From the NCBI GenBank assembly GCA_963681505.1, contig OY811987.1, forward strand, positions 1,571,066 to 1,635,065: a stretch of 64,000 nucleotides of DNA, in the 5' to 3' direction. Shown here piece by piece: positions 236 to 64,000 of the stretch. Origin of the DNA: Eunapius fragilis (taxonomy: Eukaryota; Porifera; Demospongiae; Spongillida; Spongillidae). The position numbers and the translations under genes are program-made. Each line of letters opens with the position of its first letter. Within the stretch, counting starts at the first letter, position 1. Below the pieces are notes generated by a model. That model searched no databases. It saw only the letters and a program-made list of their open reading frames with translations, and was not told the DNA's origin.

Positions 236-262
236 CATTCCCTCTCTCCCTCTCTCAGACAC
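236..262 (+). promoter_or_regulatory. Probable 3' splice acceptor just before the ATG of ARM-ATE1 copy 1
   Basis: A pyrimidine tract of CCCTCTC repeats ends in CAG at 256-258 and is followed by ACAC and the ATG at 263. This looks like an intron acceptor in the 5' UTR, or a trans-splice site. The same arrangement precedes copy 2 and copy 3. The upstream exon is not visible. Confidence 0.55.
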
Positions 263-3200
263 ATGAGTGCAGCCTTTTCAAAGTATCCAGGACATGAGGG
301 CTTGATCTCGCTTGCGTTCAACATCGTCACTCAGAATGAAGAATGTGTCAATGATGATGAATTGCCCACAGAAGAGCCTCCCTCTGTTGCCTACGAACTT
401 CTCAAACATGCCTCGAATGCCTTTTCAGCTATCAACAAAAAATCCATGGTCCATTATAAGGCCCTTGTAATCCTGTCAGGGCTGCTTGGGCAGTACCCAG
501 ACCATCTCCCTGGTGTCTGTGACATCAGTGTCCTTGCGGAGCTGATCAATGGAGTATTGGAGCAGCAGAACAGAGAGATAGCCTGTCGGGCAGGAAGGGA
601 TATTGTTAAGCTCCTGAAGTTTTTGGACAAATCTCAGCTGAAGGAATTGAGCACCAGAGGCGTTTGCAGTCATTTGTGGACCCTCCTAGAGAACTACGAT
701 CACATGGACCCTGACTATGTTGTTCAAATCATTGTAGGCATAGAATACTTTGTACCACGGGTGAACCTTCTAGCCGAGGATGACTCCCAGTGTTTGCTGT
801 GTATGACAAATGGGCTGCCTTCACACCGGGAACTTCAGAGAAGGATTTGGAACCTGTTTGCAGTTCATTGCAAACTGAGTGCCGAGTTTGCAACTCAGTT
901 GCTGGCCTTGAATGTCCTCAACGTGGTTGTCACTGTTCTGCAGCAGGATGATACGCAAATCACGAGTTTTGTTTTGGAGTTTTTGGAGAGCTGCAGAAAA
1001 GCAATGCCACAGCATTTGTCCCAACTTTGCCTGAAGCAGGATTCAGTACTGGAAACTCTAGTGAAGACAACTATTCCAGACGACTGCATGGAGCAGACGT
1101 GCATTCTGCTGGCCTGCATCATTGACTGCTGCAGTGGGGCAACTTGTTCCAAACTGTTCCAGTACAAAATGGTTAGCAAGTTGGAGGATTGCGCTAGGAA
1201 AGCACCCCATCATTGCCTGCCCATAGCATGCAAGTGTATCGAGAAGGTCCTCCACCTCCTATCATCAGACTCCGAACGCAACGAGGAGAACAGTTTAGAG
1301 GCATTTAGGGTGCAGTTCTTTGCAGAGTACCACCATCTCTTCATTCAAGATGTGCTGGCCATCACTATGAATGCATCATATCAGGCTGAGCTTGTTTATA
1401 TGCTGCTTCAAAGGTTTCTGAGGGTGTGCCCTCAGGAGCTTATGTCCAACGTCTGCACTGCAGAATTCGTGCAGCGTTTTGTTACCGGCTTTGTGCGCGA
1501 TATCGTCCGCTTTCCAGATCAGGCAAGGAGAATAGTCTTCACTGGTCACCTGTTCCTGTTCCAAGTTAAGACAAAAGCTGTGGTTGAGATGTTTCGAGAC
1601 ATTGGCTTTCACACCACTGTCACCAATCTAATCCGAGAGTCGGAATCGCAAGACCTCCTCACTATTACGGTGGTTGTGGGTCTCCTCTCGTGCCTCACCA
1701 GCAAGTACCACGAGCACCTCAAAGACCTGAAGCCACTCCTTGATTGCAACGCGTTGGACGTGATTATCGAGATAGTGTCGAGGTTTGGTCAGTGCGACCG
1801 GACCCAGTTTGGCGACGAAGTCACCCGCATTTTCCTCACGATGACCGCCGACAAGGACGTGGCGCAGGAGCTCTTCAAGCGCAACTACCTCGACAAGTTG
1901 CTGGGGCTCCTGGGTACCTCTGACCTTCCCCCCGTGCTGCAACGCTGCCTGGTCCACTCGATAGGCAACATTGCCCTCGGAGGCCACAAGGTGAAGCAGG
2001 TCCTCACCGACCGGTGTGTGCACCACCTGCTGCTCGACATCCTGAGCGAGAAGGCTGACTCCGGGGACCCTTACCTCCTCTCCGCGTGCGGGAGGGTGCT
2101 CCACATCCTCGCCTCAAGCGACGGCATCAAGAGGGAGTTTGTGGAGCTCGGCTGCGTCGACACGCTCCTCCGCGTGCTTGGTTCCAAGGGCGACCACGCC
2201 GAAGTCTGCTGGCGAGCCCTCGGCCTTCTCAGCTCCCTCGCGTTTGTCACGGCCGTCCACAGGAAGTTTGTCGTCACGCGGGGGGTGCTGGACGCCGTTG
2301 TGGGCATCCTGGGAACGAGCACCCACGGGAAGGTGATCAGCTACGTGGCGCTGGTGCTCCTGGCCTTTGCCGAGCTGGACGAGGGCATGGTGCGTCTCAG
2401 GGAGATGGAGGTGTGCGGACCCCTGGTGGAGGCCACAAAGAGTAGCACCTACAAGAGCCAGGGGCCGGACCTCGAGAGGTGGGCGGGGCACGTGGTGGAG
2501 AAGCTGTCACTGTACACCATTGCTGCCGGTTCGGCGGTTTTAGTGGAAGGGATGCCTGGTAGCGACTGCTATGACTGGCCTCCATTGCTGCCCAACCCTT
2601 TTACCTCCGGTGATACCACTCGGGTGTGCATGGATGACCACATCAGTATCAGACCCCACTTCCCTGTCGCTGTGGAACTGGATGATACAGCAAGACTGCA
2701 GCTGCTACAGCTGGGGATCGACACCAGTCAGCCCTTGTTTCGTGTTGGTCGCGTGTACGGAAGTAGCTACGGACTTTGTAGCAACTGCGAGGTGGATGGT
2801 ACGTCGGAGGAGTTGGTCATCCGTACTCACGGCTTGACTCCTCACCAGTATCAGGGTCTCATTGACAGTGGCTGGTATAGGAGAGGGGGTGTTAAAATGT
2901 TTCGACTGAGGCAAAACCACCGCGCTCAATGCTGCGATTGGGAAACAAGAGTTTTGGTGCAGGCGTTTGACTACAGGTTACGCAAGAGCTACTCTAAAGT
3001 CCTGAGAAGAATTCCAACAGATAGACTGACTGTTGAGTCACTGCCAACACACTTCTCTCGAGATGCTTTTGAACTGTACAATGAGTATCACTTCAAGAAG
3101 CATGATAAACCTATCAAATCTGAATACTCGTATGCTGAGCATGCTGTGAACAGTCCCATATCAAACTATACTGTAAATGGCATAGAATATGGAACCTATC

Positions 3201-3892
3201 ACCAGTTGTATCGGTTGGACGGAAGGCTTGTAGCTGTTGGTGTCATTGATATAGTCCCAAAGGGCATTGTCAGCGTGTACATGTGGTACAGTCTGGAGAA
3301 GGAAGTGTCCAAGTACTCACTTGGAGTTTATTCTGCTCTCAAAGAGATAGAGTTTGTTCGAGAGCTGAGCAAGAAGAATCCAGAGATGAAGTATTACTAC
3401 CTCCAGGGATGGAATGAAAATAACAAGAAGCTTGCGTACAAGGCCAACTACTCTCCTGAATCATTCTACTGTGCCTGTATAACACCAGAGTGGCTTCCAT
3501 CCTTGGAGGCTGTGAAAGAGGCTAAAGAGAAGTACCTCAGGGAACACACACATGATCAAAATGGCCTTCCATCTAGTAATGCCACTTCACCCATAGCTGT
3601 GGAGATAACAGACAAGGACAAGAAAGTATCACCTGATGTGCCATGTTCAGCATTTGAGAATGACAGAGCAAAGTACCAGCAACTGACAGGGCACAGGCCT
3701 GATGTTAGCAAGATGGTGGTCTGTTTGAACTATGCCACATACATGTACCTTGGTGAGGTGTTTTCAAGGTTTGGTGTAGACAAGATTCAGAGAGAGCTAA
3801 TGGAGAGAAGGTTTGAGGAACTTATTGTAGCCATAGGCCCAGAGCTGGGTGAAACTCTTGTTGTTGATGTAAAAGTTTGTTCTACTTTGTGA
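263..3892 (+). CDS. ATE1-like: ARM/HEAT-repeat - arginyl-tRNA-protein transferase (ATE1) fusion, copy 1
   Basis: A single uninterrupted 1209-residue frame. Residues 1 to about 770 are leucine-rich helical repeats of ARM/HEAT character (for example VHSIGNIALGGHKVKQVL). From about 825 the protein matches ATE1. The N-terminal ATE domain has a C-x2-C pair (C839, C842), LIDSGWYRRGGVKMF, and a CC pair (C890, C891). These have the spacing of the cysteines that bind an iron-sulfur cluster in known ATE1 proteins. The C-terminal ATE domain (about 930-1085) has YGTYHQLYRLDG, VGVIDIVP, SLGVYSALKEIEF and YKANYSPESFY. ATE1 transfers arginine from Arg-tRNA to protein N-termini, normally as a protein of about 500 residues without ARM repeats. 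The ATG at 263 is supported by the identical start in copies 2 and 3 and the acceptor just upstream. The last 13 residues differ from the other copies. Family assignment is firm; enzymatic activity is not shown. Confidence 0.92.
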   Translation: MSAAFSKYPGHEGLISLAFNIVTQNEECVNDDELPTEEPPSVAYELLKHASNAFSAINKKSMVHYKALVILSGLLGQYPDHLPGVCDISVLAELINGVLEQQNREIACRAGRDIVKLLKFLDKSQLKELSTRGVCSHLWTLLENYDHMDPDYVVQIIVGIEYFVPRVNLLAEDDSQCLLCMTNGLPSHRELQRRIWNLFAVHCKLSAEFATQLLALNVLNVVVTVLQQDDTQITSFVLEFLESCRKAMPQHLSQLCLKQDSVLETLVKTTIPDDCMEQTCILLACIIDCCSGATCSKLFQYKMVSKLEDCARKAPHHCLPIACKCIEKVLHLLSSDSERNEENSLEAFRVQFFAEYHHLFIQDVLAITMNASYQAELVYMLLQRFLRVCPQELMSNVCTAEFVQRFVTGFVRDIVRFPDQARRIVFTGHLFLFQVKTKAVVEMFRDIGFHTTVTNLIRESESQDLLTITVVVGLLSCLTSKYHEHLKDLKPLLDCNALDVIIEIVSRFGQCDRTQFGDEVTRIFLTMTADKDVAQELFKRNYLDKLLGLLGTSDLPPVLQRCLVHSIGNIALGGHKVKQVLTDRCVHHLLLDILSEKADSGDPYLLSACGRVLHILASSDGIKREFVELGCVDTLLRVLGSKGDHAEVCWRALGLLSSLAFVTAVHRKFVVTRGVLDAVVGILGTSTHGKVISYVALVLLAFAELDEGMVRLREMEVCGPLVEATKSSTYKSQGPDLERWAGHVVEKLSLYTIAAGSAVLVEGMPGSDCYDWPPLLPNPFTSGDTTRVCMDDHISIRPHFPVAVELDDTARLQLLQLGIDTSQPLFRVGRVYGSSYGLCSNCEVDGTSEELVIRTHGLTPHQYQGLIDSGWYRRGGVKMFRLRQNHRAQCCDWETRVLVQAFDYRLRKSYSKVLRRIPTDRLTVESLPTHFSRDAFELYNEYHFKKHDKPIKSEYSYAEHAVNSPISNYTVNGIEYGTYHQLYRLDGRLVAVGVIDIVPKGIVSVYMWYSLEKEVSKYSLGVYSALKEIEFVRELSKKNPEMKYYYLQGWNENNKKLAYKANYSPESFYCACITPEWLPSLEAVKEAKEKYLREHTHDQNGLPSSNATSPIAVEITDKDKKVSPDVPCSAFENDRAKYQQLTGHRPDVSKMVVCLNYATYMYLGEVFSRFGVDKIQRELMERRFEELIVAIGPELGETLVVDVKVCSTL

Positions 3893-5404: not shown

Positions 5405-6165
5405 CAATCTCTCGCCATCCCTCTGCTTCAGTCTCCTCTCACCATCCCTCTGCTTCAGTCTCCCCTCACCATCCCTCTGCTTCAGTCTCCTCTCATCATC
5501 CCTCTGCTTCAGTCTCCTCTCACCATCCCTCTGCTTCAGTCTCCCCTCACCATCCCTCTGCTTCAGTCTCCTCTCACCATCCCTCTGCTTCAGTCTCCTC
5601 TCACCATCCCTCTGCTTCAGTCTCCTCTCACCATCCCTCTGCTTCAGTCTCCTCTCACCATCCCTCTGCTTCAGTCTCCTCTCACCATCCCTCTGCTTCA
5701 GTCTCCTCTCACCATCCCTCTGCTTCAGTCTCCTCTCACCATCCCTCTGCTTCAGTCTCCTCTCACCATCCCTCTGCTTCAGTCTCCTCTCACCATCCCT
5801 CTGCTTCAGTCTCCTCTCACCATCCCTCTGCTTCAGTCTCCTCTCACCATCCCTCTGCTTCAGTCTCCTCTCGCCATCCCTCTGCTTCAGTCCCTCTCAC
5901 CATCCCTCTGCTTCAGTCTCCTCTCACCATCCCTCTGCTTCAGTCTCCTCTCACCATCCCTCTGCTTCAGTCTCCTCTCACCATCCCTCTGCTTCAGTCT
6001 CCTCTCACCATCCCTCTTCTTCAGTCTCCTCTCACCATCCCTCTGCTTCAGTCCCTCTCACTATCCCTCTGCTTCAGTCTCCCCTCACCATCCCTCTGCT
6101 TCAGTCCCTCTCACTATCCCTCTGCTTCAGTCTCCCCTCACCATCCCTAGCTCTGCTTCATCTCC
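5405..6165. repeat. 27-bp tandem repeat array A
   Basis: About 27 tandem units of a 27-base sequence (core CCATCCCTCTGCTTCAGTCT then CCTCTCA). A few units have lost three or more bases, mostly near the 3' end. Because 27 is a multiple of three and the unit lacks stops, all three plus-strand frames stay open for 250-350 codons. The predicted peptides are repeats of SHHPSASVS or IPLLQSPLT type and are not credible proteins. Confidence 0.93.
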
Positions 6166-8146: not shown

Positions 8147-11100
8147 TCAAGTAGCCTTCAAGTCAATAATCAGCTGGGAGCTCAGCTCTGGGCCTATGGC
8201 TACAATAAGTTCCTCAAACCTTCTCTCCATTAGCTCTCTCTGAATCTTGTCTACACCAAACCTTGAGAACACCTCACCAAGGTACATGTATGTGGTATAG
8301 TTCAAACAGACCACCATCTTGCTAACATCAGGCCTGTGCCCTGTCAGTTGCTGGTACTTTGCTCTGTCATTCTCAAATGCTGAACATGGCACATCAGGTG
8401 ACACTTTCTTGTCCTTGTCTGTAGTCTCCATAGCTATGGATGTGGTGGCATTACTAAATGGAAGGCCATTTTGATCATGTGTGTGTCCCCTGAGGTACTT
8501 CTCTTTAGCCTCTTTCACAGCCTCCAAGGATGGAAGCCATTCTGGTGTTATACAGGCACAGTAGAATGATTCAGGAGAGTAGTTGGCTTTGTACGCAAGC
8601 TTCTTGTTATTTTCATTCCATCCCTGGAGGTAGTAATACTTCATCTCAGGATTCTTCTTGCTCAGCTCTCGAACAAACTCTATCTCTTTGAGAGCAGAAT
8701 AAACTCCAAGTGAGTACTTGGACACTTCCTTCTCCAGACTGTACCACATGTACACGCTGACAATGCCCTTTGGGACTATATCAATCAGACTAACAGCTAC
8801 AAGCTTTCCATCCAATCGATACAACTGGTGATAGGTTCCATATTCTATGCCATTTACAGTTTGGCTTGAAATTACACTATCAACTGCATGCTCCACATAG
8901 GAGTGTTCACACTTTGGAGTCTTATCATGCTTCTTAAAGTTGTACTCATTGTACAGGTCAAAAGCATCTCGAGAGAAGTGTGTTGGCAGTGACTCAACAG
9001 TCAGTCTATCTGTTGGAATTCTTCTCAGGAGTTTAGAGTACCTCTTCCTGTAGTCAAACTCCTGCACCAAAACTCTTGTTTCCCAATCACAGCATTGAGC
9101 GCGGTGGTTTTGCCTCAGTCGAAACATTTTAACACCCCCTCTCCTATACCAGCCATTGTCAATGAGACCCTGATACTGGTGAGGAGTCAAGCCGTGAGTA
9201 CGGATGACCAACTCCTCCGACGTACCATCCACCTCGCAGTTGCTACAAAGTCCGTAGCTACTTCCGTACACGCGACCAACACGAAACAAGGGCTGACTGG
9301 TGTCGATCCCCAGCTGTAGCAGCTGCTGCCTTGCTGTATCATCCAGTTCCACGGCGACAGGGAAGTGGGGTCTGAGACTGATGTGGTCATCCGTGCACAC
9401 CCGAGTGGTATCACCGGAGGTAAAAGGGTTGGGCAGCAATGGAGGCCAGTCATAGCAGTCGCTACCAGGCATCCCTTCCACTAAAATCGCCGAACCGGCA
9501 GCAACGGTGTACAGCGACAGCGTCTCCACCACGTGCCCCGCCCACCTCTCGAGGTCCGGCCCCTGGCTCTTGTAGGTGCTACTCTTTGTGGCCTCCACCA
9601 GGGGTCCGCACACCTCCATCTCCCTGAGACGCACCATGCCCTCGTCCAGCTCGGCAAAGGCCAGGAGCACCAGCGCCACGTAGCTGATCACCTTCCCGTG
9701 GGTGCTCGTTCCCAGGATGCCCACAACGGCGTCCAGCACCCTCCGCGTGACGACAAACCTCCTGTGGACGGCCGTGACAAACGCGAGGGAGCTGAGCAGG
9801 CCCAGGGCATGCCAGCAGACTTCGGAGGTGTCGCCCTTGGAACCCAGCACGCGGAGGAGCGTGTCGACGCAGCCGAGCTCCACAAACTCCCTCTTGATGC
9901 CGTCACCCGCGGCGAGGATGTCGAGCACCCTCCCGCACGCGGAGAGGAGGTAAGGGTCCCCGGAGTCAGCCTTCTCGCTCAGGATGTCGAGCAGCAGGTG
10001 GTGCACGCGCCGGTCGGTGAGGACCTGCTTCACCTTGTGGCCTCCGAGGGCAATGTTGCCTATCGAGTGAACCAGGCAGCGTTGCAGCACGGGGAGAAGG
10101 TCAGAGGTACCCAGGAGCCCCAGCAGCTTGTCGAGGTAGTTGCGCTTGAAGAGCTCCTGCGCCACGTCCTTGTCGGCGGTCATCGTGAGGAAAATGCGGG
10201 TGACTTCGTCGCCAAACTGGGTCCGGTCGCACTGACCAAACCTCGACACTATCTCGATAATCACGTCTAACGCGTTGCAATCAAGGAGTGGCTTCAGGTC
10301 TTTGAGGTGCTCGCGGTACTTGCTGGTGAGGCACGAGAGAAGACCCACAACCACCGTAATAGTGAGGAGGACTTGCGATTTCGACTCTCGGATTAGATTG
10401 GTGACAGTGGTGTGAAAGCCAATGTCTCGAAACATCTCAACCACAGCTTTTGTCTTAACTTGGAACAGGAACAGGTGACCAGTGAAGACTATTCTCCTTG
10501 CCTGATTTGGAAAGCGGACGATATCGCGCACAAAGCCGGTAACAAAACGCTGCACGAAATCTGCAGTGCAAACGTTGGACATAAGCTCCTGAGGGCACAC
10601 CCTCAGAAACCTTTGAAGCAGCATATAAACAAGCTCAGCCTGATATGATGCATTCATAGTGATGGCCAGCACATCTTGAATGAAGAGATGGTGGTACTCT
10701 GCAAAGAACTGCACCCTAAATGCCTCTAAACTGTTCTCCTCGTTGCGTTCGGAGTCTGATGATAGGAGGTGGAGGACCTTCTCGATACACTTGCACGCTA
10801 TGGGCAGGCGATGATGGGGTGCTTTCCTAGCGCAATCCTCCAACTTGCTAACCATTTTGTACTGGAACAGTTTGGAATAAGTTGCCCCACTGCAGCAGTC
10901 AATGATGCAGGCCAGCAGAATGCACATCTGCTCCATGCAGTCGTCTGGAATAGTTGTCTTCACTAGAGTTTCCAGTACTGAATCCTGCTTCAGGCAAAGT
11001 TGGGACAAATGCTGTGGAATTGCTTTTCTGCAGCTCTCCAAAAACTCCAAAACAAAACTCGTGATTTGCATATCATCCTGCTGCAGCACAGTGACAACCA

Positions 11101-11761
11101 CGTTGAGGACATTCAAGGCCAGCAACTGAGTTGCAAACTCGGCACTCAGTTTGCAATGAACTGCGAACAGGTTCCAAATCCTTCTCTGAAGTTCCCGGTG
11201 TGAAGGCAGCCCATTTGTCATACACAGCAAACACTGGGAGTCATCCTCGGTTAGAAGGTTCACCCGTGGTACAAAGTATTCTATGCCTACAATGATTTGA
11301 ACAACATAGTCAGGGTCCATGTGATCGTAGTTCTCTAGGAGGGTCCACAAATGACTGTACACGCCTCTGGTGCTCAATTCCTTCAGCTGAGATTTGTCCA
11401 AAATATTCAGGAGCTTGACAATGTCCCTTCCTGCCCGACAGGCTATCTCTCTGCTCTGCTGCTCCAATACTCCATTGATCAGCTCCGCAAGGACACTGAT
11501 GTCACAGACACCAGGGAGATGGTCTGGGTACTGCCCAAGCAGCTCTGACAAGATTACAAGTGCCTTATACTGGACCATGGACTTTTTGTTGATAGCTGAA
11601 AAGGCATTCGAGGCAAGTTTGAGAAGCTCGTAGGCAACAGAGGGAGGCTCTTCTGTGGGCAATTCATCATCATTGACACATTCTTCATTCTGAGTGACGA
11701 TGTTGAACGCAAGCGAGATCAAGCCCTCATGTCCTGGATACTTTGAAAAGGCTGCACTCAT
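8147..11761 (-). CDS. ATE1-like: ARM/HEAT-repeat - ATE1 fusion, copy 2
   Basis: An uninterrupted 1204-residue frame, very similar to copy 1 along its whole length but inverted. The same parts are present: about 770 residues of ARM/HEAT-like repeats, the C-x2-C and CC cysteine pairs of the ATE N-terminal domain, and the ATE C-terminal domain with YGTYHQLYRLDG, SLGVYSALKEIEF and YKANYSPESFY. Differences from copy 1 include a two-residue deletion in the linker (RKRYSKL against RLRKSYSKV) and a different C-terminus, SSQLIIDLKAT, shared with copy 3. The start at 11761 follows an acceptor-like CAG (11766-11768 in complement). This is the second fully intact copy and probably encodes a protein. Whether it arginylates proteins is inference. 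Confidence 0.92.
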   Translation of the reverse strand: MSAAFSKYPGHEGLISLAFNIVTQNEECVNDDELPTEEPPSVAYELLKLASNAFSAINKKSMVQYKALVILSELLGQYPDHLPGVCDISVLAELINGVLEQQSREIACRAGRDIVKLLNILDKSQLKELSTRGVYSHLWTLLENYDHMDPDYVVQIIVGIEYFVPRVNLLTEDDSQCLLCMTNGLPSHRELQRRIWNLFAVHCKLSAEFATQLLALNVLNVVVTVLQQDDMQITSFVLEFLESCRKAIPQHLSQLCLKQDSVLETLVKTTIPDDCMEQMCILLACIIDCCSGATYSKLFQYKMVSKLEDCARKAPHHRLPIACKCIEKVLHLLSSDSERNEENSLEAFRVQFFAEYHHLFIQDVLAITMNASYQAELVYMLLQRFLRVCPQELMSNVCTADFVQRFVTGFVRDIVRFPNQARRIVFTGHLFLFQVKTKAVVEMFRDIGFHTTVTNLIRESKSQVLLTITVVVGLLSCLTSKYREHLKDLKPLLDCNALDVIIEIVSRFGQCDRTQFGDEVTRIFLTMTADKDVAQELFKRNYLDKLLGLLGTSDLLPVLQRCLVHSIGNIALGGHKVKQVLTDRRVHHLLLDILSEKADSGDPYLLSACGRVLDILAAGDGIKREFVELGCVDTLLRVLGSKGDTSEVCWHALGLLSSLAFVTAVHRRFVVTRRVLDAVVGILGTSTHGKVISYVALVLLAFAELDEGMVRLREMEVCGPLVEATKSSTYKSQGPDLERWAGHVVETLSLYTVAAGSAILVEGMPGSDCYDWPPLLPNPFTSGDTTRVCTDDHISLRPHFPVAVELDDTARQQLLQLGIDTSQPLFRVGRVYGSSYGLCSNCEVDGTSEELVIRTHGLTPHQYQGLIDNGWYRRGGVKMFRLRQNHRAQCCDWETRVLVQEFDYRKRYSKLLRRIPTDRLTVESLPTHFSRDAFDLYNEYNFKKHDKTPKCEHSYVEHAVDSVISSQTVNGIEYGTYHQLYRLDGKLVAVSLIDIVPKGIVSVYMWYSLEKEVSKYSLGVYSALKEIEFVRELSKKNPEMKYYYLQGWNENNKKLAYKANYSPESFYCACITPEWLPSLEAVKEAKEKYLRGHTHDQNGLPFSNATTSIAMETTDKDKKVSPDVPCSAFENDRAKYQQLTGHRPDVSKMVVCLNYTTYMYLGEVFSRFGVDKIQRELMERRFEELIVAIGPELSSQLIIDLKAT

Positions 11762-12596: not shown

Positions 12597-15500
12597 TACT
12601 GCAGTTAAGCCACTCATCCCTACAAGCACAGTTAAGCCACTCACCCCTACAAGCACAGTTAAGCCACTCACCCCTACAAGCACAGTTAAGCCACTCACCC
12701 CTACAAGCACAGTTAAGCCACTCACCCCTACAAGTACAGTTAAGCCACTCACCCCTACAAGCACAGTTAAGCCACTCACCCCTACAAGCACAGTTAAGCC
12801 ACTTATCCTTACAAGCACAGTTAAGCCACTCACCCCTACAAGCACAGTTAAGCCACTCATCCCTACAAGCACAGTTAAGCCACTCATCCCTACAAGCACA
12901 GTTAAGCCACTCATCCTTACAAGCACAGTTAAGCCAGTCACCCCTACAAGCACAGTTAAGCCACTCATCCCCTACAAGCACAGTTAAGCCACTCATCCCT
13001 ACATGCACAGTTAAGCCACTCACCCCTACAAGCATAGTTAAGCCACTTATCCCTACAAGCACAGTTAAGCCACTCACCCCTACAAGCACAGTTAAGCCAG
13101 TCACCCCTACAAGCACAGTTAAGCCACTCACCCCTACAAGCACAGTTAAGCCACTCACGCCTACAAGCACAGTTAAGCCACTCACCCCTACAAGCACAGT
13201 TAAGCCACTCATCCCTACAAGCACAGTTAAGCCACTCACCCCTACAAGCACAGTTAAGCCACTCACCCCTACAAGCACAGTTAAGCCACTCACCCCTACA
13301 AGCACAGTTAAGCCAGTCATCCCTACAAACACAGTTAAGCCACTCACCCCTACAAGCACAGTTAAGCCACTCACCCCTACAAGCACAGTTAAGCCACTCA
13401 CCCCTACAAGCACAGTTAAGCCACTCACCCCTACAAGCACAGTTAAGCCAGTCATCCCTACAAACACAGTTAAGCCACTCACCCCTACAAGCACAGTTAA
13501 GCCACTCACCCCTACAAGCACAGTTAAGCCACTCATCCCCTACAAGCACAGTTAAGCCACTCACCCCTACAAGCACAGTTAAGCCACTTATCCCTACAAG
13601 CACAGTTAAGCCACTCACCCCTACAAGCACAGTTAAGCCACTCATCCCTACAAGCACAGTTAATCCACTCACGCCTACAAGCACAGTTAAGCCACTCACC
13701 CCTACAAGCACAGTTAAGCCACTCACCCCTACAAGTACAGTTAAGCCACTCACCCCTACAAGCACAGTTAAGCCACTCATCCCTACAAGCACAGTTAAGC
13801 CACTCACCCCTACAAGCACAGTTAAGCCACTTACCCCTACAAGCACAGTTAAGCCACTCACCCCTACAAGCACAGTTAAGATACTCATCCCTACAAGCAC
13901 AGTTAAGCCACTCACCCCTACAAGCACAGTTAAGCCAGTCACCCCTACAAGCACAGTTAAGCCACTTACCCCTACAAGCACAGTTAAGCCACTCACCCCT
14001 ACAAGCACAGTTAAGCCACTCACCCTTACAAGCACAGTTAAGCCACTCACCCCTACAAGCACAGTTAAGCCACTCACCCCTACAAGCACAGTTAAGCCAG
14101 TCACCCCTACAAGCACAGTTAAGCCACTCATCCCTACAAGCACAGTTAAGCCACTCATCCCTACAAGCAGTTAAGCCACTCATCACTACAAGCAGTTAAG
14201 CCACTCACCCCTACAAGCACAGTTAAGCCACTCACCCCTACAAGCACAGTTAAGCCACTCATCCCTACAAGCACAGTTAAGCCACTCATCCCTACAAGCA
14301 GTTAAGCCACTCATCCCTACAAGCACAGTTAAGCCACTCACCCCTACAAGCACAGTTAAGCCACTCACCCCTACAAGCACAGTTAAGCCACTCATCCCTA
14401 CAAGCACAGTTAAGCCACTCACCCCTACAAGCACAGTTAAGCCACTCACCCCTACAAGCACAGTTAAGCCAGTCATCCCTACAAGCACAGTTAAGCCACT
14501 CACCCCTACAAGCACAGTTAAGCCACTTATCCCTACAAGCACAGTTAAGCCACTCACCCCTACAAGCACAGTTAAGCCACTCATCCCTACAAGCACAGTT
14601 AAGCCACTCACCCCTACAAGCACAGTTAAGCCAGTCATCCCTACAAGCACAGTTAAGCCACTCACCCCTACAAACACAGTTAAGCCACTCATCCCTACAA
14701 GCACAGTTAAGCCACTCACCCCTACAAACACAGTTAAGCCACTCACCCCTACAAGCACAGTTAAGCCACTCATCCCTACAAGCACAGTTAAGCCACTCAC
14801 CGCTACAAGCACAGTTAAGCCACTCACCCCTACAAGCACAGTTAAGCCACTCACCCCTACAAGCACAGTTAAGCCACTCACCCCTACAAGCACAGTTAAG
14901 CCACTCACCCCTACAAGCACAGTTAAGCCACTCATCCCTACAAGCACAGTTAAGCCACTCACCCCTACAAGCACAGTTAAGCCACTCACCCCTACAAGCA
15001 CAGTTAAGCCACTCACCCCTACAAGCACAGTTAAGCCACTCATCCCTACAAGCACAGTTAAGCCACTCACCCCTACAAGCACAGTTAAGCCACTCATCCC
15101 TACAAGCACAGTTAAGCCACTCACCCCTACAAGCACAGTTAAGCCACTCACCCCTACAAGCACAGTTAAGCCACTCATCCCTACAAGCACAGTTAAGCCA
15201 CTCACCCCTACAAGCACAGTTAAGCCACTCACCCCTACAAGCACAGTTAAGTCACTTATCCCTACAAGCACAGTTAAGCCACTCATCCCTACAAGTACAG
15301 TTAAGCCACTCACCCTTACAAGCACAGTTAAGCCACTCACCCTTACAAGCACAGGTAAGCCACTCACCCTTACAAGCACAGTTAAGCCACTCACCCCTAC
15401 AAGTACAGTTAAGCCACTCATCCCTACAAGCACAGTTAAGCCACTCACCCCTACAAGCACAGTTAAGCCACTTACCCCTACAAGCACAGTTAAGCCACTT

Positions 15501-18500
15501 ACCCCTACAAGCACAGTTAAGCCACTCACCCCTACAAGCACAGTTAAGCCAGTCATCCCTACAAACACAGTTAAGCCACTCAACCCTACAAGTACAGTTA
15601 AGCCACTCACCCCTACAAGCACAGTTAAGCCACTCACCCCTACAAGCACAGTTAAGCCACTTATCCCTACAAGCACAGTTAAGCCACTTATCCCTACAAG
15701 CACAGTTATGCCACTCATCCCTACAAGCACAGTTAAGCCAGTCATCCCTACAAGCACAGTTAAGCCACTCACCCCTACAAGCACAGTTAAGCCACACACC
15801 CCTACAAACACAGTTAAGTCACTTATCCCTACAAGCACAGTTAAGCCACTTATCCCTACAAGCACAGTTAAGCCACTCATCCCTACAAGCACAGTTAAGC
15901 CAGTCATCCCTACAAGCACAGTTAAGCCACTTACCCCTACAAGCACAGTTAAGCCACTCATCACTACAAGCACAGTTAAGCCACTCATCCCTACAAGCAC
16001 AGTTAAGCCACTCATCCCTACAAGCACAGTTAAGCCACTCATCACTACAAGCACAGTTAAGCCACTCACCCCTACAAGCACAGTTAAGCCACTCACCCCT
16101 ACAAGCACAGTTAAGCCACTCACCCCTACAAGCACAGTTAAGCCAGTCATCCCTACAAACACAGTTAAGCCACTCACCCCTACAAGTACAGTTAAGCCAC
16201 TCACCCCTACAAGCACAGTTAAGCCACTCACCCCTACAAGCACAGTTAAGCCACTTATCCCTACAAGCACAGTTAAGCCACTTATCCCTACAAGCACAGT
16301 TATGCCACTCATCCCTACAAGCACAGTTAAGCCAGTCATCCCTACAAGCACAGTTAAGCCACTCACCCCTACAAGCACAGTTAAGCCACACACCCCTACA
16401 AACACAGTTAAGTCACTTATCCCTACAAGCACAGTTAAGCCACTTATCCCTACAAGCACAGTTAAGCCACTCATCCCTACAAGCACAGTTAAGCCAGTCA
16501 TCCCTACAAGCACAGTTAAGCCACTTACCCCTACAAGCACAGTTAAGCCACTCATCACTACAAGCACAGTTAAGCCACTCATCCCTACAAGCACAGTTAA
16601 GCCACTCATCCCTACAAGCACAGTTAAGCCACTCATCACTACAAGCACAGTTAAGCCACTCACCCCTACAAGCACAGTTAAGCCACTCATCCCTACAAGC
16701 ACAGTTAAGCCACTCATCCCTACAAGCACAGTTAAGCCACTCACCCCTACAAGCACAGTTAAGCCACTTATCCCTACAAGCACAGTTAAGCCACTCACCC
16801 CTACAAGCACAGGTAAGCCACTCATCCCTACAAGCACAGTTAAGCCACTCATCCCTACAAGCACAGTTAAGCCACTCACCCCTACAAGCACAGTTAAGCC
16901 AGTCATCCCTACAAGCACAGTTAAGCCACTAATCCCTACAAGCACGGTTAAGCCACTCATCCCACTCACCCCTACAAGCACAGTTAAGCCACTCATCCCT
17001 ACAAGCACAGTTAAGCCACTCATCCCTACAAACACAGTTAAGCCACTCATCCCCTACAAGCACAGTTAAGCCACTCACCCCTACAAGCACAGTTAAGCCA
17101 CTCATCCCTACAAGCACAGTTAAGCCACTCATCCCTACAAGCACAGTTAAGCCACTCACCCCTACAAGCACAGTTAAGCCACTCATCACTACAAGCACAG
17201 TTAAGCCACTCATCCCTACAAGCACAGTTAAGCCACTCACCCCTACAAGCACGGTTAAGCCACTCACCCCTACAAGCACAGTTAAGCCACTCACCCCTAC
17301 AAGCACAGTTAAGCCACTCACCCCTACAAGCACAGTTAAGCCACTCACCCCTACAAGCACAGTTAAGCCACTCACCCCTACAAGCACAGTTAAGCCACTC
17401 ATCACTACAAGCACGGTTAAGCCACTCATCCCTACAAGCACAGTTAAGCCACTTATCCCTACAAGCACAGTTAAGCCACTCACCCCTACAAGCACAGTTA
17501 AGCCACTCACCCCTACAAGCACAGTTAAGCCACTCACCCCTACAAGCACAGTTAAGCCACTCACCCCTACAAGCACAGTTAAGCCACTCATCACTACAAG
17601 CACAGTTAAGCCACTCACCCCTACAAGCACAGTTAAGCCACTCACCCCTACAAGCACAGTTAAGCCACTCACCCCTACAAGCACAGTTAAGCCACTCATC
17701 CCTACAAGCACAGATAAGCCACTCACCCCTACAAGTACAGTTAAGCCACTCACCCCTACAAGCACAGTTAAGCCACTCACCCCTACAAGCACAGTTAAGC
17801 CACTCACCCCTACAAGCACAGTTAAGCCACTCACCCCTACAAGCACAGTTAAGCCACTCATCCCTACAAGCACAGTTAAGCCACTCATCCCTACAAGCAC
17901 AGTTAAGCCACTCACCCCTACAAGCACAGTTAAGCCACTCACCCCTACAAGCACAGTTAAGCCACTCATCCCTACAAGCACAGTTAAGCCACTCATCCCT
18001 ACAAGCACAGTTAAGCCACTTATCCCTACAAGCACAGTTAAGCCACTCACCCCTACAAGCACAGTTAAGCCACTCACCCCTACAAGCACAGTTAAGCCAC
18101 TCATCCCTACAAGCACAGTTAAGCCACTTATCCCTACAAGCACAGTTAAGCCACTCACCCCTACAAGCACAGTTAAGCCACTCACCCCTACAAGCACAGT
18201 TAAGCCACTCATCACTACAAGCACGGTTAAGCCACTCATCCCTACAAGCACAGTTAAGCCACTCACCCCTACAAGCACAGTTAAGCCACTTATCCCTACA
18301 AGCACAGTTAAGCCACTCACCCCTACAAGCACAGTTAAGCCACTCACCCCTACAAGCACAGTTAAGCCACTCACCCCTACTAGCACAGTTAAGCCACTCA
18401 CCCCTACAAGCACAGTTAAGCCACTCATCCCTACAAGCACAGTTAAGCCACTCACCCCTACAAGCACAGTTAAGCCACTCACCCCTACAAGCACAGATAA

Positions 18501-18885
18501 GCCACTCACCCCTACAAGTACAGTTAAGCCACTCACCCCTACAAGCACAGTTAAGCCACTCACCCCTACAAGCACAGTTTAGCCACTCACCCCTACAAGC
18601 ACAGTTAAGCCACTCACCCCTACAAGCACAGTTAAGCCACTCATCCCTACAAGCACAGTTAAGCCACTCATCCCTACAAGCACAGTTAAGCCACTCACCC
18701 CTACAAGCACAGTTAAGCCACTCACCCCTACAAGCACAGTTAAGCCACTCATCCCTACAAGCACAGTTAAGCCACCCATCCTTACAAGTACAGTTAAGCC
18801 ACTCACCCCTACAAGCACAGTTAAGCCACTCACCCCTACAAGCACAGTTAAGCCACTCACCCCTACAAGCACAGTTAATCCACTC
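12597..18885. repeat. 27-bp satellite array B, about 6.3 kb
   Basis: About 230 tandem copies of a 27-base unit (core CACAGTTAAGCCACTCACCC then CTACAAG) with single-base variants such as CTCATCC, CAGTCATCC and CTTATCC. There are occasional one-base insertions (for example CATCCCCTAC near 12967 and 13536) and units of 24 or 33 bases. A 22-unit block (594 bases) is duplicated around 15540-16080 and 16134-16674. The unit is unrelated to array A. Minus-strand frames of up to 954 codons are a consequence of a stop-free unit whose length is divisible by three. Confidence 0.96.
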
Positions 18886-33611: not shown

Positions 33612-36600
33612 TCAAGTAGCCTTCAAGTCAATAATCAGCTGGGAGCTCAGCTCTGGGCCTATGGCTACAATAAGTTCCTCAAACCGTCTCTCCATAAGCT
33701 CTCTCTGAATCTTGTCTACACCAAACCTTGAGAACACCTCACCAAGGTACATGTATGTGGTATAGTTCAAACAGACCACCATCTTGCTAACATCAGGCCT
33801 GTGCCCTGTCAGTTGCTGGTACTTTGCTTTGTCATTCTCAAATGCTGAACATGGCACATCAGGTGATACTTTCTTGCCCTTGTCTGTAGTCTCCATAGCT
33901 ATGGATGTGGTGGCATTACTAGATGGAAGGCCATTTTGATCATGTGTGTGTTCCCTGAGGTACTTCTCTTTAGCCTCTTTCACAGCCTCCAAGGATGGAA
34001 GCCACTCTGGTGTTATACAGGCACAGTAGAATGATTCAGGAGAGTAGTTGGCCTTGTACGCAACCTTCTTGTTATTTTCATTCCATCCCTGGAGGTAGTA
34101 ATACTTCATCTCTGGATTCTTCTTGCTCAGTTCTCGAACAAACTCTATCTCTTTGAGAGCAGAATAAACTCCAAGTGAGTACTTGGAAACTTCCTTCTCC
34201 AGACTGTACCACATGTACAGACTGACAATGCCCTTTGGGACTATATCAATCAGACTAACAGCTACAAGCTTTCCATCCAATCGATACAACTGGTGATAGG
34301 TTCCATATTCTATGCCATTTACAGTTTGGCTTGAAATTACACTATCAACTGCATGCTCCACATAAGAGTGTTCACACTTTGGAGTCTTATCATGCTTCTT
34401 ATAGTTGTACTCATTGTACAGGTCAAAAGCATCTCGAGAGAAGTGTGTTGGCAGTGACTCAACAGTCAGTCTATCTGTTGGAATTCTTCTCAGGACTTTA
34501 GAGTAGCTCTTGCGTAACCTGTAGTCAAACTCCTGCACCAAAACTCTTGTTTCCCAATCGCAGCATTGAGCGCGGTGGTTTTGCCTCAGTCGAAACATTT
34601 TAACACCCCCTCTCCTATACCAGCCATTGTCAATGAGACCCTGATACTGGTGAGGAGTCAAGCCATGAGTACGGATGATTAACTCCTCTGATGCACCATC
34701 CACCTTGCAGTTCTTACAGGTACCATAGCTACTTCCGTACACGCGACCAACACGAAACAAGGGCTGACTGGTGTTGATCCCCAGCTGTAGCAGCTGCTGC
34801 CTTCCTGTATCATCCAGTTCCACGGCGACAGGGAAGTGGGGTCTGAAGCGTAGCTTCTCATCTGAAGCCATCTGACCAGCATCTCCCACAACTCTGGGAC
34901 TGGGTGGCAAAGGTGGTGGCCAATTGCAAGCGTGTGTTTCGGGAGGCTGGTCAATGACGGACCCGCGCTGCCAGAACGCTGGCCTAACGCCAATGGTGTA
35001 CAGGTTCACCTCTTCCAACATTTGCGTGGCCCACTTTTTCAAGTTCGGTTCCTGGAGGTTGTATACAATGTTGCCCCTCGCCGCAGCGACTGCTCCCGTC
35101 ACCCCCCCGTGTTCCATCCCCCTCAGCTTACCCGCACCCACATCCAAGTGCCCGACGACCATGAGTACCAGGACCGCTCTGCTCACCACCGAGCCGTGCA
35201 AACCCATCTTAAGGATGCCGGTCGCCAGCTCCATGACGTGCCCCAGAGAGGCGTGGCCCTGGCGAATGGCCCCAGTCGTCACGATGCCCAGCAGGCCCAG
35301 GGCGCTGCAGCAGATGTTGGGATTTGTGCTCTGGGCCCTCACCAAGTCGATCACGGCCTGGGCGCACCCGGCCTCCAGGAGCTCTCGCTGGTAAGGTTCG
35401 ACCATCGCCAAGATGTGCAGAAGCCTGCAGCAGGCGGGGACTGCCGCGGACAGTTCGCCGTCCGACTTCAGGATGTCCAGCAGCATGTAGTGGAACATGC
35501 GCTCCATGAGGACTCGCTTGGCTTCGTACCCGCCCAGCGCAATGTTGCCGATGCAGTTGAGGACCGAAGACTGCGTCACTGGGGGGAGACTGCCGCTGCC
35601 AAACATCTCCAGGAACTTGTCCATACAACCGCGCTTGAAGAGCTCGCGGGTCATGTCGGCATTCATGGTCATTTTCGACAGGATATTGTGTACGTCCGCC
35701 CCGGACTGGCTGTCCCATTCGTCCTCCCCAAACTCCAGTGCCTTTTCGATGGTCACGTCCAACACGTTGCAATCAAGGAGTGGCTTCAGGTCTTTGAGGT
35801 GCTCGTGGTACTTGCTGGTGAGGCACGAGAGAAGACCCAATGTCACGGCTAGGAGGTCTTGTGGTACCAGTCCCTTGAGTATATTTGTAATGGCTACATG
35901 GAGGCCAAGGTCTCGACAAATTGAGATTGGGCCCGCTGTATTGAGGTGGGATAGAAACAAGTGCGCAGTGAACACTGGGGTAGTGGCTATCTCCGGAAAC
36001 GAGGCAACGTCCCGAATGCAACTAGCAATAAAACAGCGTACAAAGTCCAAGGAATGTGTTTTGATCAAATAATAGGGTGGAGCCTCTTCCAGTATGCTCT
36101 GAAAGGTTGAATAGATCAGCTCCACAAGAAACGAGTTGGAGACAATCTCGCTATTGGAAAGCATATCCCTAATGAACAGGTAGTGGTCCCCACTGAAGAA
36201 ATGCGCCCTCAAACTGCCGTTGTCTCCAGCGTCCTTTCCCCGAAGCCGACTAAGCATTCCAGTGATGCTGATAAATGCCGGCAGAGCACACGTACGGGGA
36301 AACCTTCTGGCGCAATCTTCCAGCCTGGCAAGCAGCTTGTACTCAATCACCTTGTACAGATAGCTACCCTCACACATTTCGGCAAGCAGTCCGCACACGT
36401 TACAGACGTCCTCTTCCCTGCAGCTCATCTCACCACCGACGATCTTAAGCAGGCACTCCATCAAAGTGCTGTGCTCCAGGCAGAGCTGAGACATACAGCT
36501 CCCCGGCGTCGGGTTGGTGAATGAGATCACAAATTGCAGCACACCTTCGGTGGTGTCCGCGTTGTTTTGCTGCAGGGCCTGGCTCACCACGCTCAGCACG

Positions 36601-37270
36601 TCCTGCGCCAGGATCTTACCGGCAAACACTTCATTCTCCCTGCAGTGGAGCGTAAGGATACCCCAGATCTGTACCTGGACGGCCGGGTATGAGAGGAAGG
36701 TTTTAGCGGCACCGAGCAGGGAGACGTGATCACCCTGGGCGAGGACGTCGTCCGTGCGAGGCACGATTGTGGTAAGCATGTTCACGCCTGTGACAACCTG
36801 CTCATAGACCTGCGCCTCCATTCCCTCATAGTAAGGAAGCAGGCGCCTCATGCAGGTGTACACACCTCTGGAGCCAGTTCCTCCAGTTCTGATTTGTCCA
36901 GAAGCTTCAGCAGCGTGACGACGTCCTTCACCCCACGAAAGGCAGTGTCCAGGTCGTGGTGTGCGGCGACGTCCAATACTCCATTTATCAGACGTGCTAG
37001 GATATCTGTCACATTGCAGTGAGTACGAAGATGGGCTGGGTACTGCCTCAGCAGCGCCCCCACAATCACAAGGGCCTTGAGTTGAACCTTTGGTTTGTTG
37101 CCAATAGCAGCAAACGCGTCGAAGGCACACTGAATAAACTCGTAGTCTACAGGGAGAGGCTCGTCTGGGCTCTGAAGTGAATCAAAGCGTGCTTCATTTG
37201 GAGTGACGATGTTGAACGCAAGCGAGATCAAACCTTCATGTCCTGGATGCTTTGAAAAGGCCGCACTCAT
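33612..37270 (-). pseudogene. ATE1-like: ARM/HEAT-repeat - ATE1 fusion, copy 3, one frameshift
   Basis: The start at 37270 gives MSAAFSKHPGHEGLISLAF as in copies 1 and 2, preceded by a CATTCAG acceptor. A one-base deletion near 36866-36876 (copy 1 has LSTRGV, here the frame breaks at LAPEV) stops that frame shortly after. The remaining roughly 1080 residues are fully open in the next frame. Most of the ARM part has diverged from copies 1 and 2. The ATE1 part (33612 to about 34850) is almost identical to copy 2, including CKNC and CC cysteines and YKANYSPESFY. A single lesion in an otherwise clean 3.66 kb frame may be a recent null mutation or an assembly error. Read data would decide. Without the lesion the product would be about 1219 residues. 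Confidence 0.85.
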
Positions 37271-37429
37271 GTGTCTGAATGAAAGTGAAGGTGGAAATGG
37301 GAGTGTGAGAACGATGAGAGAGGTGTAAAAAAAAAGTAGTGTGTGGATGGTCAAACATGCCGTTACCACTTAGGAAGTTACGGTATTTAAAGGTTGGGGG
37401 GGGGGGGGGAACAAACAAATGAGCGTGTC
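37271..37429 (-). promoter_or_regulatory. 5' flank of copy 3 with acceptor-like site
   Basis: On the minus strand a pyrimidine-rich stretch ends in CATTCAG, then ACAC and the ATG. The 29-bp minisatellite found at copies 1 and 2 is missing here. Confidence 0.45.
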
Positions 37430-39253: not shown

Positions 39254-40343
39254 TCACTTCTTTTCCTCTCCCTTGGACTCCACGTCGTCCAGTATCCTCA
39301 GCGTCTTCTGTGCCTTCATCTCGTTCATCTTGACGTAGCTGTACGCTGCGGACCCTCCCAGCACCATCACATTGCTCACCCACCACAACCCGCTCTTCAC
39401 CTCCGAGTACACGACACAAGCCAGAATGGTCTGGGCACAAGCCTTCGCCGTGCCGCTCACGTTGTGCGTCAGGGGCGTGGTCACCTTGATCTGCAGCGAC
39501 GTCACGTAACCGATGGCGATCCCGAATATGCCGGCCGCCACGAGCAGCAGCCAGAAGTACGCCTCCCCCCAGTGCTCAAACTTCCTCAGGGCGGGGGTTT
39601 CCCCCAGCACGAATATGAGGGGTAGCATAATGAGCACGGCGTTGATGTTGTTGTACAGCTGGAGCCTCCATATGTTGTCCCCCACAGAGGGCAGGACCTT
39701 CTTGGTGTAGATGGAGTACATGGCCACACAGAGGCTGGCCAACACGCCGCACGTGACGCCAAAGATGGAGAGGTTCTCCACCGACTTGTCCTCCTCCTTG
39801 ACGCCCAGCCAGAAGCCGAGGACTATGACCCCACAGCAGGTTAGGACGGCCATGGAGACCGTCTGACTCAGGACTAGGTAAGACAGCACCTGGAGCAGGG
39901 TAGGAAAGAGGTTTAAGGGGGGTGGTGGGGGGGGGGGGGGGGGGGGGGGGGGAAGGAGGGGGAGATGAGGTTGAAGGGGGTGGGGGGGAGGAGGGGAAGA
40001 TGAGGTTATACGGGGGTGGGGGGGAGATGAGATTGAAGGGGGTGGGGAGGGGAAGATGAGGTTGAAGGGGAGAGATGAGATTGAAGGGGGTGGGGAGGGG
40101 AAGAAGGTTGAAGGGGGGAGATGAGGTTGAAGGGGGAAGGTGAAGGACAGGATGTGAAAGTAAAGGACAGGATGTGAGGGAGGATGTGAGTGAAGGTAAG
40201 GGATGTGAGAAGCCATTCCACTATTAGGTCAACATGTGCTTCAAATCAATAACCTATGGTTTAAATAATACACCTTCAATAATTAATAATTAGCACGAAG
40301 CTCCATTTTCTCCCTGACAGGGGGCTGTTTCAGTAAATAAGTG

Positions 40344-41622: not shown

Positions 41623-41824
41623 AACACAGCACCAACAAGCTGCACACCTTGTACCTGCCTTGTCCAACAAAACAGGTCAAAGCAAAGTCGCCCGCTAATT
41701 ACGAATCATGGATCGACCAAACAAGTTAGTTAAGTAAACTTTACAATTATACAGTGTCGCGCGCCCGCGCCAGCATTTTTCCCGTGCCCAGACTTCACAT
41801 CAAGGGGCGTGTGTTTATTATATT
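41623..41824. promoter_or_regulatory. Candidate bidirectional promoter between SLC35C1 and TRPT1
   Basis: Only 202 bases separate the two divergent start codons. No TATA box is evident for either gene. The segment must hold both 5' UTRs and core promoters. Confidence 0.5.
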
Positions 41825-50194: not shown

Positions 50195-61102
<10,908 letters not shown>

Positions 61103-61527: not shown

Positions 61528-64000
61528 TCATGTTCCTAATGAAGTAACCTTCAGATCAATTACTAGGTTTGAACCCAGCTCTGGGCCTATGGCTACAGTA
61601 AGTTCCTCAAATCTTCTCTCTATTAGCTCTCTCTGAATCTTGTCTACACCAAACCTTGAGAACACCTCACCAAGGTACATGTATGTGGTATAGTTCAAAC
61701 AGACCACCATCTTGCTAACATCAGGCCTATGCCCTGTCAGTTGCTGGTACTTTGCTCTGTCATTCTCAAATGCTGAACATGGCATATCAGGTGATACTTT
61801 CTTGTCCTTGTCTGTAGTCTCCATAGCTATGGATGTGGTGGCATTACTAGATGGAAGGCCATTTTGATCATGTGTGTGTTCCCTGAGGTACTTCTCTTTA
61901 GCCTCTTTCACAGCCTTCAAGGATGGAAGCCACTCTGGTGTTATACAGACACAGTAGAATGATTCAAGGTAGTAATACTTCATCTCTGGATTCTTCTTGC
62001 TCAGTTCTCGAACAAACTCTATCTCTTTGAGAGCAGAATAAACTCCAAGTGAGTACTTGGACACTTCCTTCTCCAGACTGTACCACATGTACAGACTGAC
62101 AATGCCCTTTGGGACTATATCAATCAGACTAACAGCCACAAGCTTTCCATCCAATCGATACAATTGGTCTTACTCAATCCCATCCACTGTCTGATTCCCT
62201 ATTGGGCTATTGACAGCATGTTCTCGATAATGATAATCCAAAGCCAGATGCTTATCATGGCGTCCCACCATGAAACCATTGTACAGCTCATGGGATTCTT
62301 GGGAGTACTGTGCTGGCACTGTCTCCACAGTTAGACGGCCAACTGGCATCCTCCTCATGACCTTAGCGAAGCTCTTGTGTGAATGATAGTCAAAATCCCT
62401 CACCAGAACCCTGGTCTCCCACAGAGAACACCTGACATCATGACACTGAGTGGTCCGGTACAGCTTGACTCCGCCTCTCCTAAACCATCCGTAGTCGATG
62501 AGTTGTTGATACTGCTCGAGAGTAAGTCCGTGGGGACGTACAATCAGGTTGTCATACTGACTCTCGTTGACGTGGCAGCCGCACGAGATGGCCTGGGTAC
62601 CGTCAATCTGCCCTATACGCAGTAGGGGTTTGTGCATGCTCAGTCCAAGAGAAGTCAGCTGTTGTATGCAGGTCTGGTCCAGCACAGGTGCAAGAGGAAT
62701 GCACTGGCCCAGACCACTAGGTGCTGGGTCAGAGCTGACCTTTGGGGGCCAGCAATATTGTGTATCAAGAGCCAACAACCAGGTATGGGTTCCCCTGGGA
62801 TGTTATGCTGTTGAGGAAAAGCCGTTCTACGAGCGTGGTGGCAACGGCACTCAGACCTTGCACATGTGTGTTATTCTTGGCTCTGACGATCACATTGATA
62901 TCTACAGCCTTACGGATAACTGGGATCATGTCGTCCAGCTGGATCAACTGTAAGAACACGAGGGCTGCGTTCATCAGGATGTAACCATCCTGTTTATCAG
63001 GCAGAAACTCATTCACTGTACGCACAATACCAAAAACATCCTCAACAGCACACTTGTTGTCAGAAGGCAACATTAGATTGGCCAGAAAACCAAGTGCACG
63101 TGAGACCAAATAGGAAATGCTGTGGTGAACTATCAAGACACTCATGAGTGTTTGGGTACAACCCGATGCTACAAGTGTTTTCTTAACAGTGTCATCCTCG
63201 AACAAAACCATCAGCATCAAACAGCATGCACCCATGACGTTGGTGTCTTCTGTCATTGGATTATTCGTCACCAGATCTAGCCAGATATGGTGGTAATTCT
63301 TCTCTATCAAGTATGCACCTTGCGTACATAGCACGCAATATTGGAGAGGGCAGTGACAATGCACCTGAGGATCAAACGAGAGTTGACCCTTTTGATTTGT
63401 ACAAGCTTCTCAACGTAGCCCACCCTGTAAAGTTCCAAGCAGGTTTCCTTATCAAGTATGTTTTCAAACAGTGTGACGCATAGATTGGTGACTACCTGAG
63501 CCGAATTGACTGTCTTCTGCAGATTTGCAGTTCTCAGGTGATCAGCAATGAAGTCACAGAGGCCACATTTCACGACAACAGTCATGTCCACCTTGGTGTC
63601 CTTGTACAACTGCACGAGACCAGAGAGCAGACAGATTTCACGTATTGCTTTGCAGGTGGGATCAACACAAACATACAGATTTAGCCTTGCACAATCTAAA
63701 AACATGCCAATGATACTGAAACCGGCTGTTACAGACTTAAAGGGGGGCTATAGGTATCATCATCAACAGCAAACTGAAAGTGCATTCCATTGTGCTGCTC
63801 CAAGAACCTGATGTGATGATGGCTACAAGGGCACCCACAAGATCAGGAAAAACTAAACATCTGCCTTTGAAATCTAGGTTGACTATGCAAGTGTCTTTTA
63901 AAAAGGAAATGACTAAATCTGAGAGGGAGGAGCTGCCACACCCCAGTGCTGAAACAGCTGCACCCATGATGTCATCAGATACTCGGGCCTGCTTGCCCAT
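61528..64000 (-). pseudogene. ARM/HEAT-repeat - ATE1 fusion, copy 4, decayed chimera (5' end outside the window)
   Basis: Four consecutive frames cover it: 63737-64000, 63307-63705 and 62765-63364 (ARM-like repeats), and 62170-62778 plus 61528-62163 (ATE1). Frame changes occur near 63720, 63320 and 62780. An in-frame TAA at about 62168 interrupts NQTVDGIE before QLYRLDG. Upstream of that point the protein is strongly diverged from copies 1-3. Downstream it is nearly identical to copies 2 and 3. Fifty-four bases encoding the QGWNENNKKLAYKANYSP stretch are missing near 61968. The cysteine sites are altered to C-x-C (SCGC) and CS (RCSLW) instead of C-x2-C and CC. Some frame changes could be introns, since GAGTAAGAC at the junction resembles a donor, but the sum of lesions favours a pseudogene. 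Confidence 0.8.

Follow-up and report, generated by a model that had tools for sequence, protein, structure and literature searches.

Several described systems resemble parts of the locus analysed here. ZER1 and ZYG11B are ARM-type readers of N-terminal degrons, and the clustered protocadherins are tandem paralogues whose recognition parts diverge while one stretch is homogenised by gene conversion. Structures of the arginyltransferase ATE1 (PF04376, PF04377) have been solved from human (8tzv), yeast (7tif), and K. lactis (7wg1). In PMC10115844, four cysteines of yeast ATE1 are reported to bind zinc and Y22 to contact A77 of the tRNA, and the mechanism and function of arginylation are termed largely elusive. 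In our judgement, the substrate choice of ATE1 is poorly understood. Here we describe a gene family of the sponge Eunapius fragilis in which an ARM superhelix is fused to an ATE1-type transferase. The analysis started from a stretch of 64,000 nucleotides of contig OY811987.1 (positions 1,571,066 to 1,635,065, forward strand), which is called the window and contains four copies of the fusion, W1 to W4.

As the original prediction had stated, W1 is a single frame of 1209 codons that runs unbroken from helical repeats into a complete ATE1 module, and both folds are predicted (Table 1). The N-terminal part is predicted to form an ARM superhelix and the C-terminal module has the overall fold of solved ATE1, both also in the diverged subfamily of locus L010, with the structures matched by VIA-align lists, which leave room for other folds. 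The solved ARM structures matched include peptide-bound ones. The ATE_C (GNAT) domain scores above its Pfam cut-off of 25 bits in three window copies (86.2-91 bits), and ATE_N remains below its cut-off of 27 bits in all eight proteins scanned (17.4-19.5 bits in the three window copies, 18.8-24.9 bits in five relatives). A looser database annotation gives ATE_N for seven of 120 fusion relatives; here and below, P numbers denote database proteins, and the 120 are those listed of 134 matches. When the predicted structure is compared with the solved ones, the ATE_N region carries the ATE1 fold. The Pfam ARM model of ARMC5 (ARM_ARMC5, PF24768) reaches 23.7 bits in W3 and at best 48.6 bits (P0028) against a cut-off of 79.9; the Pfam scan gave no match to it in W1 or W2, and many of the 120 relatives carry it in the looser annotation. 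Compared with ATE1, the fusion adds an ARM part of about 700 residues. With ARM-repeat proteins such as beta-catenin, importin alpha, and the ARM part of LRRK2 it has the superhelix in common, and several members show the ARMC5-like matches below cut-off, but the fusion carries an enzyme at its C-terminus and no ARM-only relative is found among the 120. The likeness to ZER1 and ZYG11B is conceptual, namely ARM repeats reading N-termini, while the architecture is not shared; a weak sub-threshold ZER1-like match (E 0.0013) was seen in P0028, one of five fusion proteins scanned.

The transferase part has a signature of its own. We compared 27 canonical ATE1 proteins with 42 fusion proteins, hand-picked from those returned. 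Among the 102 columns that are at least 85% conserved in the canonical proteins, the fusion proteins keep 41, keep 14 partly, and have replaced 47. The kept positions include C839-x-x-C842, H980-Q-x-Y, D996, P999, S1004, G1021, S1024, E1028, K1056, and Y1059-K1060, with H980-Q-x-Y, D996, S1024, E1028, and K1056-x-x-Y-K fixed in all 42. The replacements D to Q862, Y to W893, P to K1013, G to Q1048, and Y to W1050 are also found in 42 of 42, F to H960 in 41, and C to N1054 in 39; L to F1068 is fixed or nearly so. The motif Q-x-W-x5-K-x-x-Y-K is present in 117 of the 120 fusion proteins and in none of 116 newly listed canonical ones, whereas the canonical core motif G-F/Y-Y-x5-K-M-x-Y-K is present in all 116 canonical proteins and in none of the 120. 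All four metal cysteines (C-x-x-C ... C-C) exist in W1, W2, and W3, and the residue between the first two, a Tyr in canonical ATE1, is Asn in 33 of the 42. The second pair is CC in 75 of the 120 members and differs in 42 of the 117 that could be scored (three unscored). Conservation along the protein is highest in the ATE1 part, at 3.2-3.6 bits over residues 821-1070 versus 1.8-2.7 bits in the ARM part. By fold and sequence the fusion branch is related to ATE1. Because ATE_N stays below cut-off and the canonical motif is missing, we file it as a divergent ATE1-related branch, set apart from ATE1 proper.

A PF04377 profile search of the genome found 15 places. Two of these are separate canonical ATE1 genes on C10 and C13 (L001 and L002, open frames of 446 and 488 residues), each encoding both parts in a single long frame, and the other 13 are fusion loci, all in one cluster on C17. 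The ARM part as query gave 18 matches in the genome, every one inside this cluster. The prediction of three further copies in the window holds for the architecture; of these, W2 is intact, W3 is frameshifted, and W4 has decayed. The large exon is unbroken in eight of the 13 loci (W1, W2, L009, L010, L011, L013, L014, and L016), counting L011, which is about 29 residues short in frame. The copies sort into four subfamilies, W1/W2, W3, L009-L014, and L015-L017. ARM identity between the subfamilies is 17-28%, with 36% for W1/W3, and L015/L016 share 44%; the comparison used the longer frame of W3, which is read out of frame at its beginning, so that the W3 values are too low. For P0005, the unbroken counterpart of W3, ARM identity is 39% with W1 and 19-26% with the remaining subfamilies. 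The ratio of nonsynonymous to synonymous substitutions (dN/dS), estimated for few pairs by simple counting, is 0.33-0.51 for the ARM parts of W1 and W2, and this pair therefore looks constrained. The canonical L001 is 71% identical to the EukProt protein Em0011g237a. The format of this name fits the gene names of Ephydatia muelleri in PMC7385117, which points to a host close to freshwater sponges, probably a demosponge; none of the fusions among the database relatives is named in this style.

In other genomes, the full-length W1 query returned 134 proteins of about 665-2115 residues at E <= 1e-3 (7990 candidates scored). ATE_C is present in all 120 listed, which form 28 groups by single linkage at 60% identity, and whole-protein identity to W1 is 32-74% across 22 relatives. 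The architecture proposed as undescribed is therefore common, yet no published description of an ARM-ATE1 fusion was found in the open-licence literature. The multigene family probably belongs to sponges. With the ATE1 module alone as query 64 proteins were returned, ten of them with the fusion motif; judged by eye, P0121-P0124 and P0128 start upstream of the ATE1 part, and P0125, P0126, and P0129-P0131 start inside it. P0130 (277 residues, on a 2.47-Mb contig) and P0131 (269 residues, on a 0.79-Mb contig) have the fusion-type motif without ATE_N and may be the last exons of intron-bearing family members. Another ATE1 fusion is P0133 (EukProt Nk52), an ATE1 with the N-terminal domain of arginyl-tRNA synthetase (PF03485, E 5.7e-08), a part of the enzyme charging its donor tRNA, between ATE_N and ATE_C.

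Three other origins of the W1 frame were rejected. The 1209 codons, the complete predicted fold, and the 134 relatives speak against a chance open frame. Contamination or a virus was rejected because of the cluster in a 6.3-Mb contig, the intron in sister copies, and the absence of viral relatives; the viral contig set searched for the fusion gave none, although near records were possibly left out. A mis-read ARM-only gene was rejected because no ARM-only match turned up among the 120 listed of 134 or in the genome.

The ARM and transferase parts have evolved differently. Between the subfamilies of the genome the GNAT region (residues 971-1085) is 88-96% identical. We determined the synonymous difference per 40-codon window in four between-subfamily pairs (W1-L010, W1-L016, L010-L016, and W3-L010). 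It is 0.55-1.01 up to residue 920, 0.48-0.73 at 921-960, 0.35-0.57 at 961-1000, and only 0-0.23 at 1001-1160, and past residue 1160 it climbs again to 0.71-0.75 versus L016. In W1-W3 the low values start earlier, near residue 801. The nucleotide identity of between-subfamily pairs is 90-98% at residues 1001-1160 versus 25-65% before 961, and the 3' flanks can be aligned only within subfamilies, apart from 191 bp of W2-W3. Trees of the ARM and GNAT parts were built from 30 sequences (ten frames of the genome and 20 returned proteins). In the ARM tree the relatives group by subfamily (support 0.997-1.0). The grouping in the GNAT tree follows the contig sets: the copies of E. fragilis are apart from all others (0.87), P0002/P0004/P0083/P0084 are joined (0.97), as are P0003/P0006/P0098 (0.78), and P0094/P0095 are paired (0.98). 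Judged from these sequences, the catalytic core is under concerted evolution by gene conversion. This is apparently the case in three contig sets, taken as three genomes, where we infer which relatives share one genome.

The exon structure bears on whether both parts lie on one mRNA. W2 is preceded by the same acceptor-like sequence as W1, and W3 by a similar one. The loci L015, L016, and L017 have coding sequence further upstream that ends in a donor-like GT and is followed by a short intron (49 nucleotides in L016) and the large exon; an upstream exon was looked for in W1-W3 and L009-L014 and none was found. Because of the acceptor-like site in front of the ATG and the exon-intron-exon pattern of L015, L016, and L017, the true start of W1 may be elsewhere than at 263. 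Five database proteins (P0011, P0028, P0040, P0045, and P0096) have, by eye, an exon-1-like start directly continuous with ARM-ATE1. They all come from organisms other than E. fragilis and from a source tagged lgn, which we take to mean assemblies of sequencing runs, and they presumably derive from spliced mRNA. Since they read straight from the exon-1-like start into ARM-ATE1, the ARM and ATE1 parts are probably on one mRNA.

Taken together, a conserved transferase fold, diverging ARM heads, and a homogenised core are best read as pointing to ARM-directed aminoacyl transfer. The genes form a multigene family of two-part, probably spliced proteins. Each protein has an ARM superhelix of about 700 residues and, behind a short flexible linker, a complete, derived ATE1-type aminoacyl-tRNA-protein transferase. 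We consider it somewhat likely that the ARM groove binds a partner or substrate and thereby places its acceptor, an N-terminus or a side chain, at the active site, where an amino acid, most likely arginine, would be moved onto it from a charged tRNA. The cluster would combine a single chemical activity with several heads that direct it, and gene conversion would hold the catalytic core uniform while the heads diverge. We infer the directed step, the donor, and the acceptor. That the ARM part would act as selector gains indirect support because it diverges between paralogues while the core is homogenised, and because of the matches to peptide-bound ARM structures.

Several observations weigh against this interpretation, the strongest doubts coming from the altered pocket and the lost cysteines. 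Because 47 of 102 canonical-conserved positions are changed, donor or acceptor could differ. Of the metal cysteines, L009-L014 and W4 retain a C-x-C and one more (second pair C-S), and L015-L017 keep three of the four (second pair C-A). The recent copies L009/L010/L011 show ARM dN/dS values of about 0.6-1.4, which may mean relaxed constraint. Five of the 13 loci are broken, W3 and L012 by frameshifts and L015 by one stop, with L017 and W4 decayed. The breaks in W3 and L015 may be recent, specific to one allele, or artefacts of assembly, because unbroken relatives exist for both (P0005 on another contig with 93% ARM identity to the partly out-of-frame W3, and P0087 with 91%). Also, residues 971-1085 of W1 share 93% identity with the orthologue P0002, 91% with L009, and 94% with L010. 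With orthologue and paralogues at about the same distance, protein identity in this region is by itself no demonstration of conversion, and GNAT is the best-conserved part family-wide, as would be expected if strong purifying selection alone explained the near-identity. We regard this explanation as very improbable, because synonymous sites are near-identical too, though those upstream are near saturation. In the tail (residues 1115-1200) W1 is 84% identical to P0002 versus 93-94% to L009/L010 (94% for W1/L009), and in GNAT P0002/P0004 share 97% versus 88% for P0004/W3.

The same pocket and cysteine changes, including the 14 partly kept columns, the non-CC second pairs, and the shortened first pair (C-x-C) of L009-L014, could indicate a pseudoenzyme that no longer transfers but binds tRNA or N-termini and serves as a scaffold or adaptor via its ARM part. 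Against this, the ATE1 part is the best-conserved stretch, retains residues fixed in all 42 proteins, and is homogenised between paralogues, and we think a pseudoenzyme unlikely. Equally unlikely appears an active transferase of changed chemistry, with a donor or acceptor other than arginine onto N-terminal Asp/Glu. The replacements are fixed new residues rather than random decay (39-42 of 42), two canonical genes remain for ordinary arginylation, and the position of the tRNA-contacting Tyr of yeast ATE1 (PMC10115844) is mostly Asn here; however, the new residues may be second-shell or accompany the ARM fusion. The tandem cluster, the diverging heads, the homogenised core, and the broken copies beside intact ones would also suit a fast-evolving immune or self-recognition array modifying foreign or allogeneic proteins. 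This seems quite improbable to us, as a widespread family with the identities to W1 given above also fits a conserved target.

If the ARM-directed transfer is correct, a natural family with one transferase core and many ARM heads would allow target selection to be tested directly. The family also reveals a further branch of aminoacyl-tRNA-protein transferases next to ordinary ATE1, marked by a core signature that is new and fixed. More tentatively, and doubtful as it stands, the family could represent a new class of targetable tagging enzymes, combining an ATE1 branch with a changed active site (new donor or acceptor), an ARM head, and a cluster sharing one converted core. The homogenised core provides a clear case of gene conversion limited to an enzyme core inside a single exon. 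The mosaic pattern is the same as in the clustered protocadherins, but the proteins are unrelated, and here the homogenised stretch is the enzyme core within one exon.

Table 1. Copies of the ARM-ATE1 fusion in the window and anatomy of copy W1.
Feature	Position	Strand	Remarks
W1, main exon of ARM-ATE1 fusion	263..3892	+	1209 codons, unbroken
Splice-acceptor-like polypyrimidine-CAG directly 5' of W1 ATG	241..258	+	sequence
W1 ARM superhelix, residues ~41-751	383..2515	+	predicted fold
W1 linker between ARM and ATE1, residues ~752-807	2516..2683	+	predicted local distance difference test (pLDDT) low in part
W1 ATE1 module, residues ~808-1207	2684..3883	+	
W1 first metal-site pair, C839-x-x-C842	2777..2788	+	aligns with canonical CGYC
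W1 second metal-site pair, C890-C891	2930..2935	+	alignment with canonical ATE1
W1 core of putatively converted, homogenised stretch, residues 1001-1160	3263..3742	+	synonymous difference
W1 diagnostic motif, Q1048-K1060, Q-x-W-x5-K-x-x-Y-K	3404..3442	+	replaces canonical G-F/Y-Y-x5-K-M-x-Y-K
W2, intact ARM-ATE1 fusion exon	8147..11761	-	1204 codons
W3, ARM-ATE1 fusion, frameshifted	33612..37369	-	overlapping frames 33612-37130 and 36848-37369
W4, decayed ARM-ATE1	61528..63705	-	stops, missing sequence; 5' part past window end

Apart from the fusion copies, the window contains at 39254-40216 (minus strand) an exon whose product belongs to the triose-phosphate-transporter family (PF03151, E 2.6e-10) and by eye resembles the GDP-fucose transporter SLC35C1; the N-terminal part of this frame looks like intron read-through. 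An exon with an RNA 2'-phosphotransferase Tpt1/KptA domain (PF01885, E 2e-24) is located at 41754-42215 (plus strand). Minisatellites are found at 12602-18885 (27-bp unit, 232.5 copies), 5409-6148 (27-bp unit, 27.5 copies), and 55222-58084 (37-bp unit, 76.8 copies), and the long frames that are open through both 27-bp arrays look like a by-product of the repeats.
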